Source of the DNA: an uncultured bacterium | Lineage (GTDB): Bacteria; Desulfobacterota_D; UBA1144 | Length of the DNA stretch: 45,091 nucleotides | NCBI GenBank assembly: GCA_913050325.1 | Contig: CAJWZP010000005.1 | Span: forward strand, 1 to 45,091 | Reading direction: 5' to 3' | Shown here: piece by piece, positions 1-42,231 of the stretch | How positions within the stretch are numbered: the stretch's first letter is position 1 | How the letters are laid out: the number at the start of each line of letters is the position of its first letter | Notes under the pieces: model-generated | Told to the model about the DNA's origin: nothing | What the model saw: only the letters and a program-made list of their open reading frames with translations | The model's database searches: none | Position numbers and translations under genes: made by a program

Positions 1-215
1 GATTTAGACAACATTGGAGTTTTTACTTCTACATCTTTTTTCTCTTCTACAGCCTTAGTCTCAACTGGTTTCTCTTCTACAGCCTTAGTCTCAACTGGTT
101 TTTCTTGGGTTGATTGATCGTTAGTAGGGCCAGATTTAAACAACATTGGAGTTTTTATTTCAATTTCATCTGGTTTACTTGAATTTTCTCCCTCTTCTTT
201 GATTTTTTCGGTCAT
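1..215 (-). CDS. Unrecognised protein with repeated short peptides, N-terminal part only
   Basis: An ATG at 215-213 on the minus strand opens a frame that runs without a stop off the left edge, giving 71 codons. I do not recognise the protein. The visible part is very hydrophilic, rich in Glu, Lys, Thr and Pro, has no signal peptide or membrane segment, and is probably disordered. It holds two kinds of repeat: KTPMLFKSG near residue 21, recurring as KTPMLSKS at the window edge, and KPVETKAVEE twice in tandem. A short conserved peptide repeated on a disordered tether suggests a docking motif, but that is inference. It is divergent from sseA. The purely in-frame repeats and good start make a real gene likely; the function is unknown. 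Confidence 0.6.
   Translation of the reverse strand, partial: MTEKIKEEGENSSKPDEIEIKTPMLFKSGPTNDQSTQEKPVETKAVEEKPVETKAVEEKKDVEVKTPMLSK
41..100. repeat. Perfect 30-bp tandem repeat (two copies)
   Basis: Positions 41-70 and 71-100 are identical over 30 bp and encode the tandem KPVETKAVEE peptide of the minus-strand frame. A second, imperfect direct repeat of 25 bp (1-25 versus 133-157, one mismatch) encodes the recurring KTPML peptide. Both units keep the reading frame, so they look like coding-repeat expansion and not mobile DNA. Confidence 0.9.
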
Positions 216-228
216 AGATAAAAAATAT

Positions 229-268
229 CATAAGTTAAAACTTATGCAAAACCTTTTGTTTTTGCATA
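229..268. promoter_or_regulatory. Two overlapping inverted repeats between divergent genes
   Basis: The first dyad is CATAAGTT (229-236) with AACTTATG (239-246), an 8-bp arm around a 2-base centre. The second is TATGCAAAA (243-251) with TTTTGCATA (260-268), 9-bp arms around 8 bases. They share 243-246, so as RNA hairpins they would be mutually exclusive. The first lies 13 bases upstream of the minus-strand start at 215 and covers a possible minus-strand -10 (TATGAT), which fits an operator. The second is followed by a T-rich run (274-280) and could instead act as a weak terminator. The role is inferred. Confidence 0.45.
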
Positions 269-348
269 GTTACTTTTTTTATACTACTACCCAAAAAGAA
301 TATATAGTATAGAATATTGAAATTATTTTTTAACGGAGGATGTAAAAA

Positions 349-1191
349 ATGGCAGAATATGCAAATCCAGAAGTTCTAGTATCAACTGAATGGGTACAGG
401 ACAATATTGGGAAAGAAGGGATTAAAATAGTGGAATCTGATGAGGATATTTTACTATATGAAATAGGTCATATAGAAGGAGCTATAAAGCTTGATTGGGA
501 AACTGAATTACAAGATGCACTAGTAAGAGATTATATAAATAAAGAAAATTTTGAAAAATTAGTTTCGTCGAAGGGTATTTCACCTGATGATACAATAGTC
601 TTTTATGGTGATAAAAGTAATTGGTGGGCATGTTATGCCTTGTGGACTTTTAAAATTTATGGACATGAAAAATGTTTAATAATGAATGGCGGAAGACAAA
701 AGTGGGTAGACGAAAAAAGAGATCTTACTAAAGACGTTGTAGAATATCCTGCAACGGATTATAAAGTATCAAATGTAAACAATAATATTAGAGCTTTCAG
801 AGATGAGGTAAGACAACATAGTGATTCTGGTAAACAACTAATAGATGTAAGATCACCTAAAGAATATTCAGGTGAATTATTACATATGGAAGCTTATCCC
901 CAAGAAGGTGCGCTTAGAGGCGGACACATTCCTAATGCTCAGAGTGTTCCATGGGCAACGGCTGCAAATGAGGATGGGACTTTCAAAAATGCTGATGAAC
1001 TTTCCAAAATATATGAAGATGGTGCAGGTCTAAAAAAAGGCGAAGATGTTATTGCCTATTGTAGAATCGGAGAAAGATCATCACACACTTGGTTTGTATT
1101 AACTTATTTGCTAGGTTATGAAAATGTTAAAAATTATGATGGTTCATGGACAGAATGGGGTAATTTAGTTCAAGCACCAATTGAAAAATAA
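349..1191 (+). CDS. sseA: Thiosulfate/3-mercaptopyruvate sulfurtransferase (two-domain rhodanese)
   Basis: Transfers sulfane sulfur from thiosulfate or 3-mercaptopyruvate to cyanide or another thiol acceptor in the cytoplasm. The 280-residue length is normal for the tandem-rhodanese family: an inactive N-terminal domain (about 8-125, with [11 protein letters not shown]) and a catalytic C-terminal domain (about 150-275) with the active-site Cys238 in CRIGERSS. From memory it is strikingly like mycobacterial CysA/SseA over its whole length, including DEDxxxYxxGHIxGAIKLDW, RAFRDEV and [10 protein letters not shown]. The start has a GGAGG at 335-339, 9 bases upstream. It is followed by a sufU-like gene, so a role in sulfur supply or thiol chemistry is plausible. 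Which sulfur donor it uses cannot be read from the sequence. Confidence 0.93.
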
Positions 1192-36220: not shown

Positions 36221-36997
36221 ATGAAATTTATTTTTTTTCTAGCTTTCTTAACAATTAATGTATTTGGGGTCAGTGATGTAGCTGATATTAGAAATAATGT
36301 AGGGTGGGATGAAAAATATGGCCAAATGCTTGATGTTAATTCTAGACTCATATCACAAACAGGCCAAGAAACAACTTTTGATAATATACTTTCTGATGAC
36401 AATCCTACAGTTTTAGTCTTAGCCTATTATTCATGTCCAAAAATGTGTTCTTTTATTCTAGATGGTGTTTCAGAAGTTGTCGCAGCGTCTGAAATGAGGC
36501 CTGGAGTCGATTATAATCTTGTTACATTGAGCTTTAATCAATCTGACACACCTGAATTATCTCAGAATTACTATAATAAGTTTGCCAATAACCTTTCAAA
36601 TGAAGAGTCTTGGAGCTTTTATACTTCTGATGAAGAATCTATTCAAAAAATTACAGCATCTGTGGGTTTTAAATTTCAACCTGATGGGGATGAATTTGCG
36701 CATCCTGCTGGTATAATAATATTGACGAGCGAAAGGGTTGTTTCAAGATATTTATCAGGAGTTATTTATGATCCTAGAGATTTTAAATTAGCTCTTCTTG
36801 AAGCTTCAGAGGGAACTACAGGTAAAGTTTCATTAACTGATAAAGTTTTATTGTATTGTTTTGATTTTGATCCTGTAGGTAAAAGATATGCACTCAAAGC
36901 CCTAAACGTTATGAAGCTTGGTGGAGCCATAACCCTAATCGCTATTATAATAATGATGGGGATTTTGTGGTTGAAAAAAAGTAAGGGGGATACTTAA
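36221..36997 (+). CDS. SCO1/SenC-family copper chaperone, C-terminally anchored
   Basis: Delivers copper to the CuA site of cytochrome oxidase. 258 residues with an N-terminal signal sequence (about 1-16), a thioredoxin fold with the copper ligands Cys72 and Cys76 (SCPKMC) and His161 (FAHPAG), and a transmembrane helix near the C-terminus (about 234-252). Most SCO proteins are anchored at the N-terminus; the C-terminal anchor form, preceded by a CFDFDPVGKRY segment, occurs with caa3 clusters. The conserved Asp/Glu before the His is replaced by the local DGDEF context. Starts the oxidase operon, 3 bases before coxB. Confidence 0.9.
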   Translation: MKFIFFLAFLTINVFGVSDVADIRNNVGWDEKYGQMLDVNSRLISQTGQETTFDNILSDDNPTVLVLAYYSCPKMCSFILDGVSEVVAASEMRPGVDYNLVTLSFNQSDTPELSQNYYNKFANNLSNEESWSFYTSDEESIQKITASVGFKFQPDGDEFAHPAGIIILTSERVVSRYLSGVIYDPRDFKLALLEASEGTTGKVSLTDKVLLYCFDFDPVGKRYALKALNVMKLGGAITLIAIIIMMGILWLKKSKGDT

Positions 36998-37000
36998 TAT

Positions 37001-37951
37001 ATGAATTGGTTACCTACATCTGCATCTACATTTGCACCTCAGGTAGATTCAATTTTATTTTTAGTGACTATTATTTCGGTTGTATCAATTATTTTGGTCA
37101 GCTTTATGTTGATTTATTTCGTCTTTAAATACAAAAGAAAAAGTGTAAATGATCAAACCCCTGCCATAACACATGATAGTTTTTTAGAAACTTTGTGGAC
37201 AGTTATACCAACCATACTTTGTATTGTAATTTTTATATACGGCTATGTTTATTATGATAGATACACAACCACTCCCAAAGATGCTTACGAGATTAATGTA
37301 ACAGCAAGAAGATGGTCATGGTCATTTGCTTATCCTAATGGTAAGAAAACTTTTAATGAATTATATGTTCCAATAAATAAGCCAATAAGGCTAGTAATGC
37401 AGTCTGATGATGTTTTACATAGCTTTTTTGTGCCAGCATTTAGAGTTAAGCAAGATCTTATAGGAAATAGATATACTTTTATTAATTTCACTCCAACTAA
37501 AGAAGGTGTTTTTGATATTTATTGCACTGAATATTGCGGTCTATCTCATTCTGATATGATTGCAAAAGTACATGTTGTTTCTGAATTTGAATATGCAAAA
37601 TGGGAATCAGGAGAAGAGGCTAAAGTTGAAAATGCTTATGCCGACATGGCGCCTAGTAAAGTTGGTGAACAACTTTATTCTTCAAAAGGTTGTGTTGCTT
37701 GCCATAGTATTGATGGTGCAAATGGTGTGGGACCTTCTTGGAAGGCTTTATATGGTAAAAAAAGAGAGTTCACTGACGGCTCAAGTGAATTAGCTGACGA
37801 AAATTATATTAAAAATTCAATTTTATACCCTGTTAAGGGACCTGATGCAAAGCTGGTAAAAGGTTATGGACCTGTTATGCCATCTTATCAGGGCTTGCTC
37901 AGTGATTCTGAAATTACAGCAATTATTGAGTATATTAAAACAATAAAGTAG
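37001..37951 (+). CDS. coxB: Cytochrome c oxidase subunit II fused to cytochrome c (caa3 type)
   Basis: 316 residues. Two transmembrane helices (about 18-43 and 66-84) anchor a periplasmic cupredoxin domain with a full CuA site: His140, Cys175, Glu177, Cys179, His183 and Met186 (CTEYCGLSHSDM). A C-terminal cytochrome c domain has the heme motif CVACH (231-235) and Met293 (PVMPSY) as likely sixth ligand. The fusion makes this a caa3 oxidase that takes electrons through its own heme c. No clear lipobox is seen at the N-terminus. Encoded between sco and coxA. Confidence 0.96.
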   Translation: MNWLPTSASTFAPQVDSILFLVTIISVVSIILVSFMLIYFVFKYKRKSVNDQTPAITHDSFLETLWTVIPTILCIVIFIYGYVYYDRYTTTPKDAYEINVTARRWSWSFAYPNGKKTFNELYVPINKPIRLVMQSDDVLHSFFVPAFRVKQDLIGNRYTFINFTPTKEGVFDIYCTEYCGLSHSDMIAKVHVVSEFEYAKWESGEEAKVENAYADMAPSKVGEQLYSSKGCVACHSIDGANGVGPSWKALYGKKREFTDGSSELADENYIKNSILYPVKGPDAKLVKGYGPVMPSYQGLLSDSEITAIIEYIKTIK

Positions 37952-37961
37952 GAGATGGATA

Positions 37962-39560
37962 ATGACAGATCATCATGATTTTGATAAAAATTATTTAGAA
38001 AATGGTAAAGGATTTAAGTCTTGGTTTTTCTCAGTGGATCATAAAAGATTAGGTGTTATGTATTTATGGGCTATTGGTGTTTTTTTTGTTTTAGCTGCCA
38101 TTGCATCTTTTTTAATAAGATTTGAACATTTAAGTCCTGGCCAAACTATAGTTAGTGCTCAAACATATAATGTTCTATTTACATTGCATGGAGCGGTAAT
38201 GGTTTTTCTTTTCATAGTCCCTGGAGTAGCTGCGAGTTTTGGTAATTTCTTGATTCCCTTAATGATTGGTGCAAGAGATGTCATTTTTCCGAAATTAAAC
38301 CTATATAGTTTTTGGGTTTATTGTGCAGGATCAATAATTCTTTTAGGATCACTTTTAGCGCCTGTTGATACTGGGTGGACTTTTTATACTCCTTATTCTA
38401 TTGATACTGGTACAAATGTTATCATGGTAACTTTTGGTGTTTTTGTTCTAGGTTTTTCATCTATTCTAACTGGTATAAATTTTATTGTTACAATGCATAA
38501 GTTAAGAGCACCAGGATTAACCTGGGACAGGCTTCCACTTTTCTGTTGGGCCGCTTATGCAACATCCCTTTTACAAGTTTTAGCAACTCCTGTTGTTGGT
38601 ATAACACTTCTTTTGCTAATAGGTGAACGATATTTTGGTTTGGGATTCTTTGATCCTGCCAAAGGTGGAGACCCAGTTTTATTCCAACATTTTTTTTGGT
38701 TTTACTCTCATCCTGCTGTTTATATAATGATACTGCCTGCAATGGGCATTATATCGGAAGTTTTGCCTGTTTTTTCCAGAAAGCCAATTTTTGGGTATAA
38801 AGCTATTGCATATTCAAGTTTAGCAATAGCATTAATTAGCTTCTTAGTTTGGGGTCACCACATGTTTACAAGTGGACAATCAAAATTAATTAATATTATT
38901 TTTTCAGTTATAACTTTTGCAGTTGCTGTACCTACGGCGATTAAGGTATTTAATTGGTTGTGGACAATGTATAAGGGATCAATTGAATTAAGTACAGCGA
39001 TGCTGTATTCACTAGCTTTTATTTTTCTATTTACCATAGGTGGCTTGACCGGACTTTTCCTAGGAGCTTTAGCTGCTGATGTACATTTGCATGATACTTA
39101 TTTTGTTGTTGCTCATATGCACTATGTTATGATCGGTGGAACTGTCTTTGGTTTATTTTCGGCGATACATTTTTGGTACCCTAAGATGTGGGGTAAAATG
39201 TTTGATGAATTCAAAGCAAAAATCGCTTTTGTTTTAATATTTATAGGTTTTAATGTAGTGTTTTTTCCCCAATTTATTTTAGGAACACAAGGAATGCCAA
39301 GAAGATATTTTAACTATTCACCTGAATTTGCATTCCTTCATCAATTATCCACATATGGTACATGGATATTAGGAGTTGGTTTCATATTGATGTTATATGT
39401 ATTATGTAGACCTACTGGGCCTGCTAGTGCTAATCCTTATAATTCTTTATCACTTGAATGGCAGATGCCTTCACCTCCACCTACATTAAATTTTAAGGAA
39501 ATCCCTACAGTAAATGATTCAACATATGCTTATGGGACTAAGATAGAGCAAGAGGCATAA
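37962..39560 (+). CDS. coxA: Cytochrome c oxidase subunit I, A2-type
   Basis: The catalytic subunit that reduces O2 at the heme a3-CuB centre and pumps protons. 532 residues, about 12 helices. Ligands: His76 and His387 for heme a, His385 for heme a3, and His250, His299 and His300 for CuB, with Tyr254 as the cross-linked tyrosine. The motif YSHPAVY (248-254) replaces GHPEVY; absence of the glutamate with YS before HP is the mark of the A2 subfamily, known from Rhodothermus caa3. Asp106 in MIGARDVIFP matches the D-channel entrance. GGAG precedes the ATG. Confidence 0.97.
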   Translation: MTDHHDFDKNYLENGKGFKSWFFSVDHKRLGVMYLWAIGVFFVLAAIASFLIRFEHLSPGQTIVSAQTYNVLFTLHGAVMVFLFIVPGVAASFGNFLIPLMIGARDVIFPKLNLYSFWVYCAGSIILLGSLLAPVDTGWTFYTPYSIDTGTNVIMVTFGVFVLGFSSILTGINFIVTMHKLRAPGLTWDRLPLFCWAAYATSLLQVLATPVVGITLLLLIGERYFGLGFFDPAKGGDPVLFQHFFWFYSHPAVYIMILPAMGIISEVLPVFSRKPIFGYKAIAYSSLAIALISFLVWGHHMFTSGQSKLINIIFSVITFAVAVPTAIKVFNWLWTMYKGSIELSTAMLYSLAFIFLFTIGGLTGLFLGALAADVHLHDTYFVVAHMHYVMIGGTVFGLFSAIHFWYPKMWGKMFDEFKAKIAFVLIFIGFNVVFFPQFILGTQGMPRRYFNYSPEFAFLHQLSTYGTWILGVGFILMLYVLCRPTGPASANPYNSLSLEWQMPSPPPTLNFKEIPTVNDSTYAYGTKIEQEA

Positions 39561-39561
39561 A

Positions 39562-40206
39562 ATGCAATTAATGAAATTTATTAAATCATTAGCATATCCA
39601 TCTGAAATGCTTCCACCTATTATTGAAGAAGAAGAAAGTCATTTTGATCCTGAAACTGTTCATAGTAGTGCTAAAATGGGAATGTGGCTTTTCTTAGCTA
39701 CAGAATTATTACTTTTTGGTGGACTTTTTGCGGCTTATGCTATTTTTAGAGCCAAATATCCAGTTATGTTTTTAGAAGGTTCTGATAGTCTCGATGTTGT
39801 TTTAGGTTCTGTTAATACCGTAATTCTAATATTTAGTAGCTGGACTGTAGCGATTGCTGTTCAGGCTATCCAAGAAAATAAAATAAAACTAGTTCAAGTA
39901 ATGATTTGGATTACTTTAATATGTGCAACTATATTTGCAATTAATAAATATTTTGAATATACCTATAAATTCAGTAAGGGCATTGGTCCTGGTACTGATA
40001 TTTTCTATTCAATTTATTTTGCGTCTACAGGTGTTCACATGTTACATGTTTTTATTGGGATGATTGTTTTAGGCATCATATTAAAGAAAACGTACCAAGG
40101 AAGATATTCAAAAGATAACTTTACTGCAATTGAAATAGGAGGTCTTTATTGGCATTTAGTAGATCTGGTTTGGATTTACTTATTTCCATTACTATATTTA
40201 GCTTAA
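39562..40206 (+). CDS. coxC: Cytochrome c oxidase subunit III
   Basis: 214 residues with about five transmembrane helices, the short form found in caa3 oxidases. Conserved blocks KMGMWLFLATELLLFGGLF, the central VNTVILIFSSWT, and STGVHMLHVFIGM near 155 and YWHLVDLVWIYLFP at the C-terminus. GAGG within the coxA end serves as ribosome-binding site, 6 bases before ATG 39562. Confidence 0.95.
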   Translation: MQLMKFIKSLAYPSEMLPPIIEEEESHFDPETVHSSAKMGMWLFLATELLLFGGLFAAYAIFRAKYPVMFLEGSDSLDVVLGSVNTVILIFSSWTVAIAVQAIQENKIKLVQVMIWITLICATIFAINKYFEYTYKFSKGIGPGTDIFYSIYFASTGVHMLHVFIGMIVLGIILKKTYQGRYSKDNFTAIEIGGLYWHLVDLVWIYLFPLLYLA

Positions 40207-40218
40207 TAAAGGAGTTTT

Positions 40219-40500
40219 ATGGCTGGTTCTAATCCTTACAAAACATATTTAAACATATTTATATTATTAATGTTTTTAACTTTCGTCACTGTTGCAGTTG
40301 CACAATTTGATTTTGGCGCATTGAATGTTCCAATTGCTCTTTTAGTTGCATCTATTAAAGCTGGTGTTGTTGCTTTACATTTTATGCACCTAAAATATGA
40401 AGATTCAATGACATGGGTTTTTGCACTTTATCCTATTTTTTTAATGTTTTTATTAATAGGTTTTTCAGCAACTGATATATTTACAAGAGTAACAAACTAG
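40219..40500 (+). CDS. coxD: Cytochrome c oxidase subunit IV (prokaryotic caa3 type)
   Basis: 93 residues, three hydrophobic helices, with the family signature KAGVVALHFMHLKYEDSMTW. A small accessory subunit of caa3 oxidases. AGGAG lies 5 bases upstream of the ATG. Between coxC and ctaA in the operon. Confidence 0.9.
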   Translation: MAGSNPYKTYLNIFILLMFLTFVTVAVAQFDFGALNVPIALLVASIKAGVVALHFMHLKYEDSMTWVFALYPIFLMFLLIGFSATDIFTRVTN

Positions 40501-40513
40501 TTATTTTTTATTT

Positions 40514-41368
40514 ATGGGAAGTATTGAAAAACTAACTCTATACTCTTTAATCTTACTTCTAATCTGGGGTAATATGGTAAGTGGCTTAGGTCATGGCCTA
40601 GCATGTCCGGATTGGCCTCTTTGTTTTGGTCAATTTTTCCCTGAAATTAATTTTCCAATTTTTATGGAACATGGCCATAGAGTTCTTGGTTTGATAGTTT
40701 CAGTTTTTTTCTTTTTTCTTGCAAAAGATAGGCTTAGAAAATATGTTGGAAAGCAAAAAATACTACCTTTTTTTGCAGGTTTTTTACTTTTAATTCAGAT
40801 TGTTTTAGGAGGCTTAGTAGTTATTTTTCAACTTGAAACAAATTTAACTACTTTCCACTTCAGTAATGCAATAGCTATCTTTCTATTAATTTATACAATG
40901 TGTAAATATCCATCTTCTGATAGTTTGAAAGCTGCTAAGTTCTTTACTTTAAAATCATCTAAATATATTTTCTTTTTTGTTATTATTTATATTCAACTTA
41001 TATTAGGGGCCTATGTAAGACATTCTAACGCAGGTTTAGCATGTCCTGATTTTCCAACCTGTTTAGGCTTTTGGCTTCCGCCTTATTTAAGTAAAACTGT
41101 TTTTCTTCATCTTATGCACAGAGTTTGGGGATTTGTCATTCTTTTCTATGCTGTATTCTTGCTTCTTTACACTTATAAAAGTAAAATTTACGATCAGTTC
41201 AAAAGGGTAAGAAATCTTTTATTATTAATACTGGTTCAAATTGCTCTTGGAATATATGTAGTTGTTTCTAAACTAGCTTTTTCTATGACCGCAATCCATT
41301 TATTTGTAGCTCTTATGATTATTATGATTGCATTAGATGCTATTTTTGATGAAAATAATGCATTATAG
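40514..41368 (+). CDS. ctaA: Heme A synthase
   Basis: Oxidises the C8 methyl of heme O to give heme A. 284 residues, about eight helices in two similar halves. Histidines of the two heme sites are present: His53/His55 (MEHGHRVLG), His115 (TFHFSN), His202 (HLMHRVWG) and His263 (AIHLFVA). Both halves carry a cysteine pair after the first helix, ACPDWPLC (Cys31/Cys37) and ACPDFPTC (Cys177/Cys183), showing the internal duplication clearly. The size fits the bacterial CtaA branch, not the longer alphaproteobacterial/mitochondrial COX15. No Shine-Dalgarno sequence lies in the 13-base gap after coxD. Confidence 0.93.
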   Translation: MGSIEKLTLYSLILLLIWGNMVSGLGHGLACPDWPLCFGQFFPEINFPIFMEHGHRVLGLIVSVFFFFLAKDRLRKYVGKQKILPFFAGFLLLIQIVLGGLVVIFQLETNLTTFHFSNAIAIFLLIYTMCKYPSSDSLKAAKFFTLKSSKYIFFFVIIYIQLILGAYVRHSNAGLACPDFPTCLGFWLPPYLSKTVFLHLMHRVWGFVILFYAVFLLLYTYKSKIYDQFKRVRNLLLLILVQIALGIYVVVSKLAFSMTAIHLFVALMIIMIALDAIFDENNAL

Positions 41369-41370
41369 AT

Positions 41371-42231
41371 ATGAATAAATTCAGAGCAATTATCTCATTG
41401 TCAAAACCAAATATTATTTTAAGTGTAGCTCTTACGGGTCTTTGCGGAATGGTGCTTGCTCAGGGCTCCTTGCCTGACTTAAAAATTATTTTTTTTACAT
41501 TAGTATCTTTAATTTTTTCCGCAGGTGGTTCAGCGATAATTAATAATCTTATTGAAGAAGACAAAGATAAATTAATGGAAAGACTTTCTAAAAGAGTTAA
41601 ATATTTTAATATTGTTGGCTCGAGGAATTTAACAATAATTGCGTCTTTTTTAATAACTTTTTCGCTTGGTATATCTTTTTTTAAAATTAATATTGTAAAT
41701 TTTTCTTTCACATTATTAGCAATTTTGAGTTATACAGTTTACTACACCCTGTTTCTTAAAAGATCTTCTCCATTTGGAACTGTTTTGGGAGGTATACCTG
41801 GTGCTTTACCTGTAATAATTGGCTTTTCTGCAATTGAGCCAAATATTTCAATTTTATATTTAAATGGAATTATAATGTTTATATTTATGATGTTGTGGCA
41901 ACCACCACATTTCTGGCTTTTAGCTCAATATCAAGCTGAGGACTACGAAAAGGCGGGCTTTCCTGTTATGCCTTTAATATATGGTAAAAAGTTCACTAAT
42001 TATTTAATAATGATTTATAGCCTCTCTCTGTTGCCATTTTCTCTTTTTTTCTGGCTTAATGGTACTGCCTCTAATTACTTTGCAATAATAGCTATTGGGT
42101 TAGCGTCAATCTTTTTATATTTGATATATTCCTCATTTAAAAATAATGATAAATATAAAATAGCTTTTTTATTCTCAATTATTTATATGTTATTAATTCA
42201 TATTTCACTTATTAGTGATATCGTTTTTTAA
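41371..42231 (+). CDS. ctaB: Protoheme IX farnesyltransferase (heme O synthase)
   Basis: Adds a farnesyl group to protoheme, giving heme O for CtaA. 286 residues, about nine helices, a UbiA-family prenyltransferase. The first acidic motif is NNLIEEDKDKLMERLSKR (about 57-74; family N-x-x-D-x-x-x-D-x-x-M-x-R, here with Glu for the first Asp). The characteristic MLWQPPHFWLLA with DYEKAGFPVMP follows near 170-200. It begins 2 bases after the ctaA stop and completes the oxidase operon. Confidence 0.94.
   Translation: MNKFRAIISLSKPNIILSVALTGLCGMVLAQGSLPDLKIIFFTLVSLIFSAGGSAIINNLIEEDKDKLMERLSKRVKYFNIVGSRNLTIIASFLITFSLGISFFKINIVNFSFTLLAILSYTVYYTLFLKRSSPFGTVLGGIPGALPVIIGFSAIEPNISILYLNGIIMFIFMMLWQPPHFWLLAQYQAEDYEKAGFPVMPLIYGKKFTNYLIMIYSLSLLPFSLFFWLNGTASNYFAIIAIGLASIFLYLIYSSFKNNDKYKIAFLFSIIYMLLIHISLISDIVF

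Follow-up and report, generated by a model that had tools for sequence, protein, structure and literature searches.

A candidate docking peptide apparently shared by the tails of a small membrane protein and of ActD in one species of Dadabacteria

Multivalent short linear motifs on disordered tails are reportedly exemplified by the repeats of CsoS2 and by the C-terminal peptide of FtsZ. The peptide KTPML(F/S)KS described here is like them in that it is short, hydrophobic-centred and repeated on charged linkers; unlike them, it was found in one species and has no library match. Its putative carriers are a small membrane protein and ActD of the respiratory alternative complex III, a complex for which, to our knowledge, no cytosolic partner has been described. 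The folded part of this ActD resembles that of described alternative complexes III (PF11821; PDB 6f0k, 6lod, 6btm, 8k9e), and a further likeness lies in the termini, both of which are cytoplasmic in the structure of the Rhodothermus marinus protein, according to PMC5928083. In several pelagic Dadabacteria an acidic repeat tail is added after the ActD domain, but KTPML was found in this genome only. Borg proteins, as described in PMC9879509, likewise have disordered regions in which in-frame tandem repeats quickly make new disordered tails; unlike these, the KTPML tails are found in a small bacterial genome and are shared between two genes. The genomes of marine pelagic Dadabacteria are streamlined, as stated in PMC8115339.

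The repeated peptide at the contig edge

The window, that is the whole stretch of 45,091 nucleotides that was analysed, has its left edge at the start of contig C5 (125,914 bases), one of the 16 contigs of a genome of 1.0 Mb. An open minus-strand frame extends from an ATG at 215 to the contig edge (3..215) and is translated to MTEKIKEEGENSSKPDEIEIKTPMLFKSGPTNDQSTQEKPVETKAVEEKPVETKAVEEKKDVEVKTPMLSK. As claimed in the earlier note, this frame contains the peptide twice. Reading of the frame and a scan with a DNA pattern placed the first copy, KTPMLFKS, at 132..155 (minus strand), starting at residue 21, and the second at 1..23 (minus strand). The last two bases at the edge, TC, begin only Ser codons, and copy 2 is therefore KTPMLSKS. 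Also confirmed was the perfect 30-bp tandem duplication, which repeat analysis located in the linker (39..106, minus strand; units coding for EKPVETKAVE): the repeat comprises 2.3 copies, the first two without any difference and the incomplete third with a single mismatch (37 matching positions out of 38 at period 30).

When the 72 residues of the edge frame were shuffled 20,000 times, 298 of the shuffled versions had a repeated 5-mer of any kind, and the DNA pattern for KTPM(L/F) has three sites in the whole genome of 999,934 bases, as compared to none for the reversed control pattern. The peptide repeat is thus more than expected by chance. Two of the three sites are the copies in the window and the third is on another contig, C8.

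The visible part of the frame has a maximal 19-residue hydropathy of −0.6, and Pfam had no match to the window tail at E ≤ 0.1. Neither profile A1 nor, subsequently, A2 found the remainder of the gene in the assembly of this genome, and the orthologue of the neighbouring UvrA was not found either, the best hit being only a 44% match. Just upstream of the frame, at 229-246, lies a short inverted repeat, cataagttaaaacttatg, that is not intact in the relatives G001-G003.

A family of small tail-anchored membrane proteins

The edge frame is divergent from a gene for a rhodanese-domain sulfurtransferase (349..1191, plus strand; Pfam PF00581, E = 9.5e-34), which was used as syntenic anchor. The closest matches of this rhodanese, 81-90% identical, are from marine-type MAGs and one single-cell genome; one of the records is named Candidatus Dadabacteria (UBA1144), others are named only 'bacterium', Thermodesulfobacteriota or Hydrogenedens (NAT53, SP78, SFB_South_Co_19, AG-470-J09); further down the matches, the name Candidatus Dadabacteria is frequent again. 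The rhodanese was found in 12 of the 13 other genomes of the family (78-90% identical), and in each of these 12 its divergent neighbour is the gene of a small membrane protein of about 72-93 residues. Alignment with five relatives revealed that the intergenic DNA (216..348), the start codon and roughly eight initial codons of the edge frame are continuous with the small-protein gene; the alignment is clearest with G001-G003, and G007 and G010 align less well. Place, start and intergenic alignment thus identify the edge frame (1..215, minus strand) as the 5′ part of the gene predicted to encode the small tail-anchored membrane protein of this species, of which only the N-terminal tail is visible. 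The window copy has the gene place, the divergent orientation, the start and the acidic N-terminal tail in common with the other members; it differs from them in that KTPML repeats are present and in that it is cut before the conserved core and the transmembrane helix.

The members share a layout in which a variable, acidic tail at the N terminus is followed by a conserved VPNxxKG segment and, at the C terminus, by a single hydrophobic helix. The core of the family is [RS]VPNxxKGY plus the single transmembrane helix, with a variant, GPDSKRG, in G006; the loci of G008, G010 and G012 hold ambiguous bases, and the frame of G010 is broken. In an AlphaFold2 model made on the orthologue alignment, residues 53-77 form the helix (mean pLDDT of blocks 84-97), and the tail (residues 5-29) is below 50. 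This agrees with the earlier description of the tether as charged, of low complexity and disordered. The folded domain expected beyond the tail, on the other hand, did not materialise, the orthologues having only the conserved juxtamembrane segment and one transmembrane helix. The positive residues preceding the helix suggest, by the positive-inside rule, that the tail would be cytoplasmic.

A script pattern applied to 80 rhodanese loci found the small protein in 22 of them, on the minus strand and no more than 4 kb upstream of the rhodanese gene; L071 and L089 carry it too, though the pattern missed them. A profile of 16 sequences (A2) matched in 39 of the 57 genomes of the phylum, and the 18 genomes that gave no match include the present one, G004 and all seven of family f5. 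Matches of the family to the libraries are weak, the best being E = 0.0063 in NCBIfam (3 of 9 members) and E = 0.061 in Pfam (1 of 9). Judged from its sequences, the small protein is a conserved, uncharacterised family of Dadabacteria with no convincing match in Pfam or NCBIfam. In the small proteins of deeper Dadabacteria (L073, L075, L076, L088, L093, L096) the helix is preceded by a conserved segment, KGLM(E/Q)RRxSFxQ(S/T)SVPNAH(K/R)GY, that is possibly a membrane-surface element.

The third copy and the tail of ActD

The end of contig C8 reads EEKKDVEVKTPMLSKSTPVKEKNEGGNNEE, followed by a stop, and contains the further copy of the peptide that had been looked for. It does not belong to the same protein but, by synteny, to the tail of ActD. 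A gene for an ActE-type cytochrome c starts within the last codons of the C8 tail frame, and the same overlap of stop and start is seen after ActD in G001. Beyond ActE, C8 continues with ActF, a 51-residue frame, PurM and a TonB-like gene. On C5, the genes for ActA, ActB, ActC and ActD lie at the far end, the last of them cut at TEEEKTEEEKTEEEK; the gap between C5 and C8 falls inside TEEEK repeats. In six of the seven genomes compared (G001, G002, G003, G006, G007, G010) the order ActC-ActD-ActE-ActF-51 aa-PurM-TonB-like is unbroken, and in the seventh, G004, a contig end cuts it between ActD and ActE. Finally, the distance from the rhodanese to ActE in G001 and G002 is about 126 kb, roughly the span of C5. 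Since gene order, stop/start overlap and the rhodanese-ActE distance agree, the C8 peptide was assigned to ActD: by synteny across the contig gap, the KTPMLSKS tail on C8 is the putative cytoplasmic C-terminal tail of this subunit. That C8 simply overlaps with C5 was ruled out by DNA that differs at 6 of 45 bases, and C8 as continuation of the window gene was rejected in favour of ActD, since ActE follows directly and the gene order is kept in the relatives.

The body of ActD on C5 matches Pfam PF11821 over residues 12-174 (E = 6.6e-40) and the PDB entry 6f0k_D (E = 1e-11); PF11821 was found in 54 of the 57 genomes of the phylum. AlphaFold2 models the G001 orthologue with long helices at 66-91 and 107-136, in keeping with the two transmembrane helices of ActD, and a mean pLDDT of 69.7. 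Residues 217-240 are below 50 and 185-225 are drawn as a helix of low confidence, for which reason disorder of the whole ActD tail is not established.

Tails of ActD in the pelagic family range from VKNEE (G007, G010) to long Glu/Lys repeats. Their length and sequence vary between sister species, and they are minimal or absent in other lineages: in 17 loci taken from other Dadabacteria families, all 16 frames that were printed (L026 was not) end with the domain. The contigs of four of the 14 genomes of the pelagic family break between ActD and ActE (L036/L003 in the genome of the window, L182/L040 in G004, L183/L048 in G011, L184/L046 in G012; the ActD tail of G012 was taken from its piece C4), and either side of the break carries the same acidic repeat words in G004 and G011. 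In G013 there was no match to ActE or ActD. The ActD tails of pelagic Dadabacteria are a recurrent, repeat-rich assembly breakpoint.

Two further gene groups were seen on the Act contigs. The 51-residue hydrophobic frame between ActF and PurM (L003, 8061..8216, minus strand) is 66-94% identical in seven relatives. On the contig with ActA-D, window positions 36221-42231 hold genes which, from reading the sequences and without a library search, we take to be SCO-like, cytochrome c oxidase subunits II, I and III and CtaA-/CtaB-like.

One peptide in two tails: constraint, docking or chance

The longest peptide common to the two tails of this genome has 16 residues, EEKKDVEVKTPMLSKS (window 1..47, minus strand; L003 10003-10050, minus strand). 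In an 11 by 11 comparison of tails (11 of the 14 family genomes; G004, G010 and G013 were left out), none of the remaining 120 pairs shares more than six residues, and 5000 shuffles gave no more than eight. The 45 comparable bases in 15 full codons differ at six positions, all of them synonymous, with p = 1.2e-4 under random single-base change, a figure based on only 15 codons and on a match found by protein search, which favours synonymous differences. By comparison, the last 21 codons of ActD have synonymous/non-synonymous counts of 0/2 (G001-G002), 1/6 (G001-G003) and 1/4 (G002-G003), and the small-protein tail has 5 synonymous and 8 non-synonymous differences between G001 and G002, as opposed to 10 and 1 in its core and helix; in the folded part of ActD the sister pairs give 17/7, 38/10 and 43/4. 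A Fisher test of 6:0 against the pooled tails of sister species (6:14; the G001-G003 ActD pair, which is not independent, was left out) gave p = 0.004, and so did the ActD tail alone (1:6); with the small-protein tail alone (5:8) p was 0.017. Non-synonymous counts take in every difference within a changed codon, and because of this way of counting and of the discovery by protein search the figures lean towards selection. With this in mind, the peptide in the edge frame and in the ActD tail bears a signature of constraint at the codon level, in line with the proposal that a short peptide is kept while its linkers expand.

The motif appears to be a novelty of this species, as far as the genomes compared show. 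A protein search for KTPML in the 13 other genomes of the family had no match, and the DNA pattern had a single hit there, in G007, out of frame inside a 251-residue frame. KTPMLxK was not found in frames of at least 30 residues in the 80 rhodanese loci, and of the 57 genomes of the phylum a longer pattern matched only the present one and G041, where the match falls in a frame of 125 residues that is antisense to one of 866. Conservation of the motif in relatives, the lack of which the earlier note had named as refuting its proposal, is therefore not borne out: no in-frame copy was found in the 13 other genomes of the family, and the 56 other genomes of the phylum yielded none in a credible frame. 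Neither tail had a match at E ≤ 10 among all PDB sequences (phmmer) or in NCBIfam and Pfam, and a search of the open PMC full texts found no paper with KTPML. A scan of viral_contigs returned 21 stretches; the eight KTPML[SFL]K in frames of at least 40 residues are all KTPMLLK, in frames of 41-91 residues that are unlike the window tail, and were not taken as relatives.

The leading reading, with a probability of roughly 0.4, is that of a species-specific candidate docking peptide shared by two tails on the inner face of the membrane. In this reading the edge frame would code for an N-terminal tail on the cytoplasmic side, belonging to a small membrane protein with a single pass; in this species the tail would have grown by small tandem duplications, and it bears two KTPML(F/S)KS. 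In ActD, which makes up most of the cytoplasmic domain of alternative complex III, the C-terminal tail would also have grown in this lineage, and it appears to bear the same 16-residue peptide. The peptide may have moved between the acidic tails by recombination of similar repeats and may be kept because it provides a short docking element at the membrane's inner face, with the acidic repeats as spacers that are free to vary in length. The small anchor and complex III would then bind the same cytosolic partner or be brought together. What speaks for the docking scaffold suggested in the earlier note is the further copy, the charged tail and a peptide that differs only synonymously; against it, no folded domain follows in the orthologues and the motif was not found in the relatives, which keep both the small protein and ActD without KTPML.

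The same tails could also have exchanged sequence without any function. The peptide would be filler in fast-evolving acidic repeats, and the two copies in the window would stem from a recent internal duplication. The nearly identical core DNA of window copies 1 and 2 fits such an origin, as do the variation of ActD tails between sister species and their minimal form or absence in other lineages, the motif not having been found in any relative, and the words EKPVET, TQEKP and AVEEKP, which the window tail shares with the ActD tails of other genera. A neutral copy in which 6 of 45 bases have changed should, however, also show changes of amino acids, and there are none (see the p values for codons and for real tails above). 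We therefore consider functionless exchange possible but on the unlikely side.

Returning to the docking peptide, its more specific form, in which it is a tag on ActD of alternative complex III and on the small tail-anchored protein and gathers the two around one cytosolic partner or each other, is doubtful. If true, a transplanted short linear motif would only recently have come to organise a respiratory complex. Should the docking peptide be real, one genome would display a bacterial short linear motif of very recent origin together with both carriers, the spacers and a synonymous-only divergence. It would also connect alternative complex III, on its cytoplasmic side, with an uncharacterised membrane protein found in 39 of the 57 genomes of the phylum. 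Should the peptide instead be functionless, the orphan frame at the edge is still tied to a conserved family without convincing library match, and the ActD tails of pelagic Dadabacteria are exposed as repeat-rich sites of assembly breaks.

An artefact of assembly would account for the shared peptide in another way: the end of C5 would be chimeric, the start of the small-protein gene having been joined there to an ActD tail from a related strain, and the peptide would come from one gene in two strains. The end of the window is indeed the end of a contig whose adjoining DNA was not found in the assembly, contigs of the family break between ActD and ActE in 4 of 14 genomes, and the window tail shares words with ActD tails of other genera. 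On the other hand, the intergenic DNA, the start codon and the first codons run on unbroken into the real gene and copy 1 starts at residue 21, which leaves about a dozen codons for a junction that would remove both copies. The 6 differences in 45 bases between C8 and the window are too many for a repeat-induced join within one strain, and the peptide would still be conserved between the ActD tails of two strains. On balance, a chimera is unlikely.

That the peptide imitates the element EVETPxLTKSTPEGARD of aspartyl-tRNA synthetase (AspRS), the tails recruiting or mimicking this enzyme, is highly improbable and was dismissed: in the same genome, AspRS aligns with 24 residues of a composite query at 46% identity and a best E of 0.19, and similar matches come from the enzymes of G006 (E = 0.26) and G003 (E = 0.49), but these values are not significant, the three matches are not independent, and the searches of PDB, NCBIfam and Pfam gave nothing for either tail. 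The gene concerned (L152, 268..2043, minus strand), presumably for AspRS as read from its sequence, carries EVETPYLTKSTPEGARD, and its resemblance to EVKTPMLSKSTP is probably due to chance.
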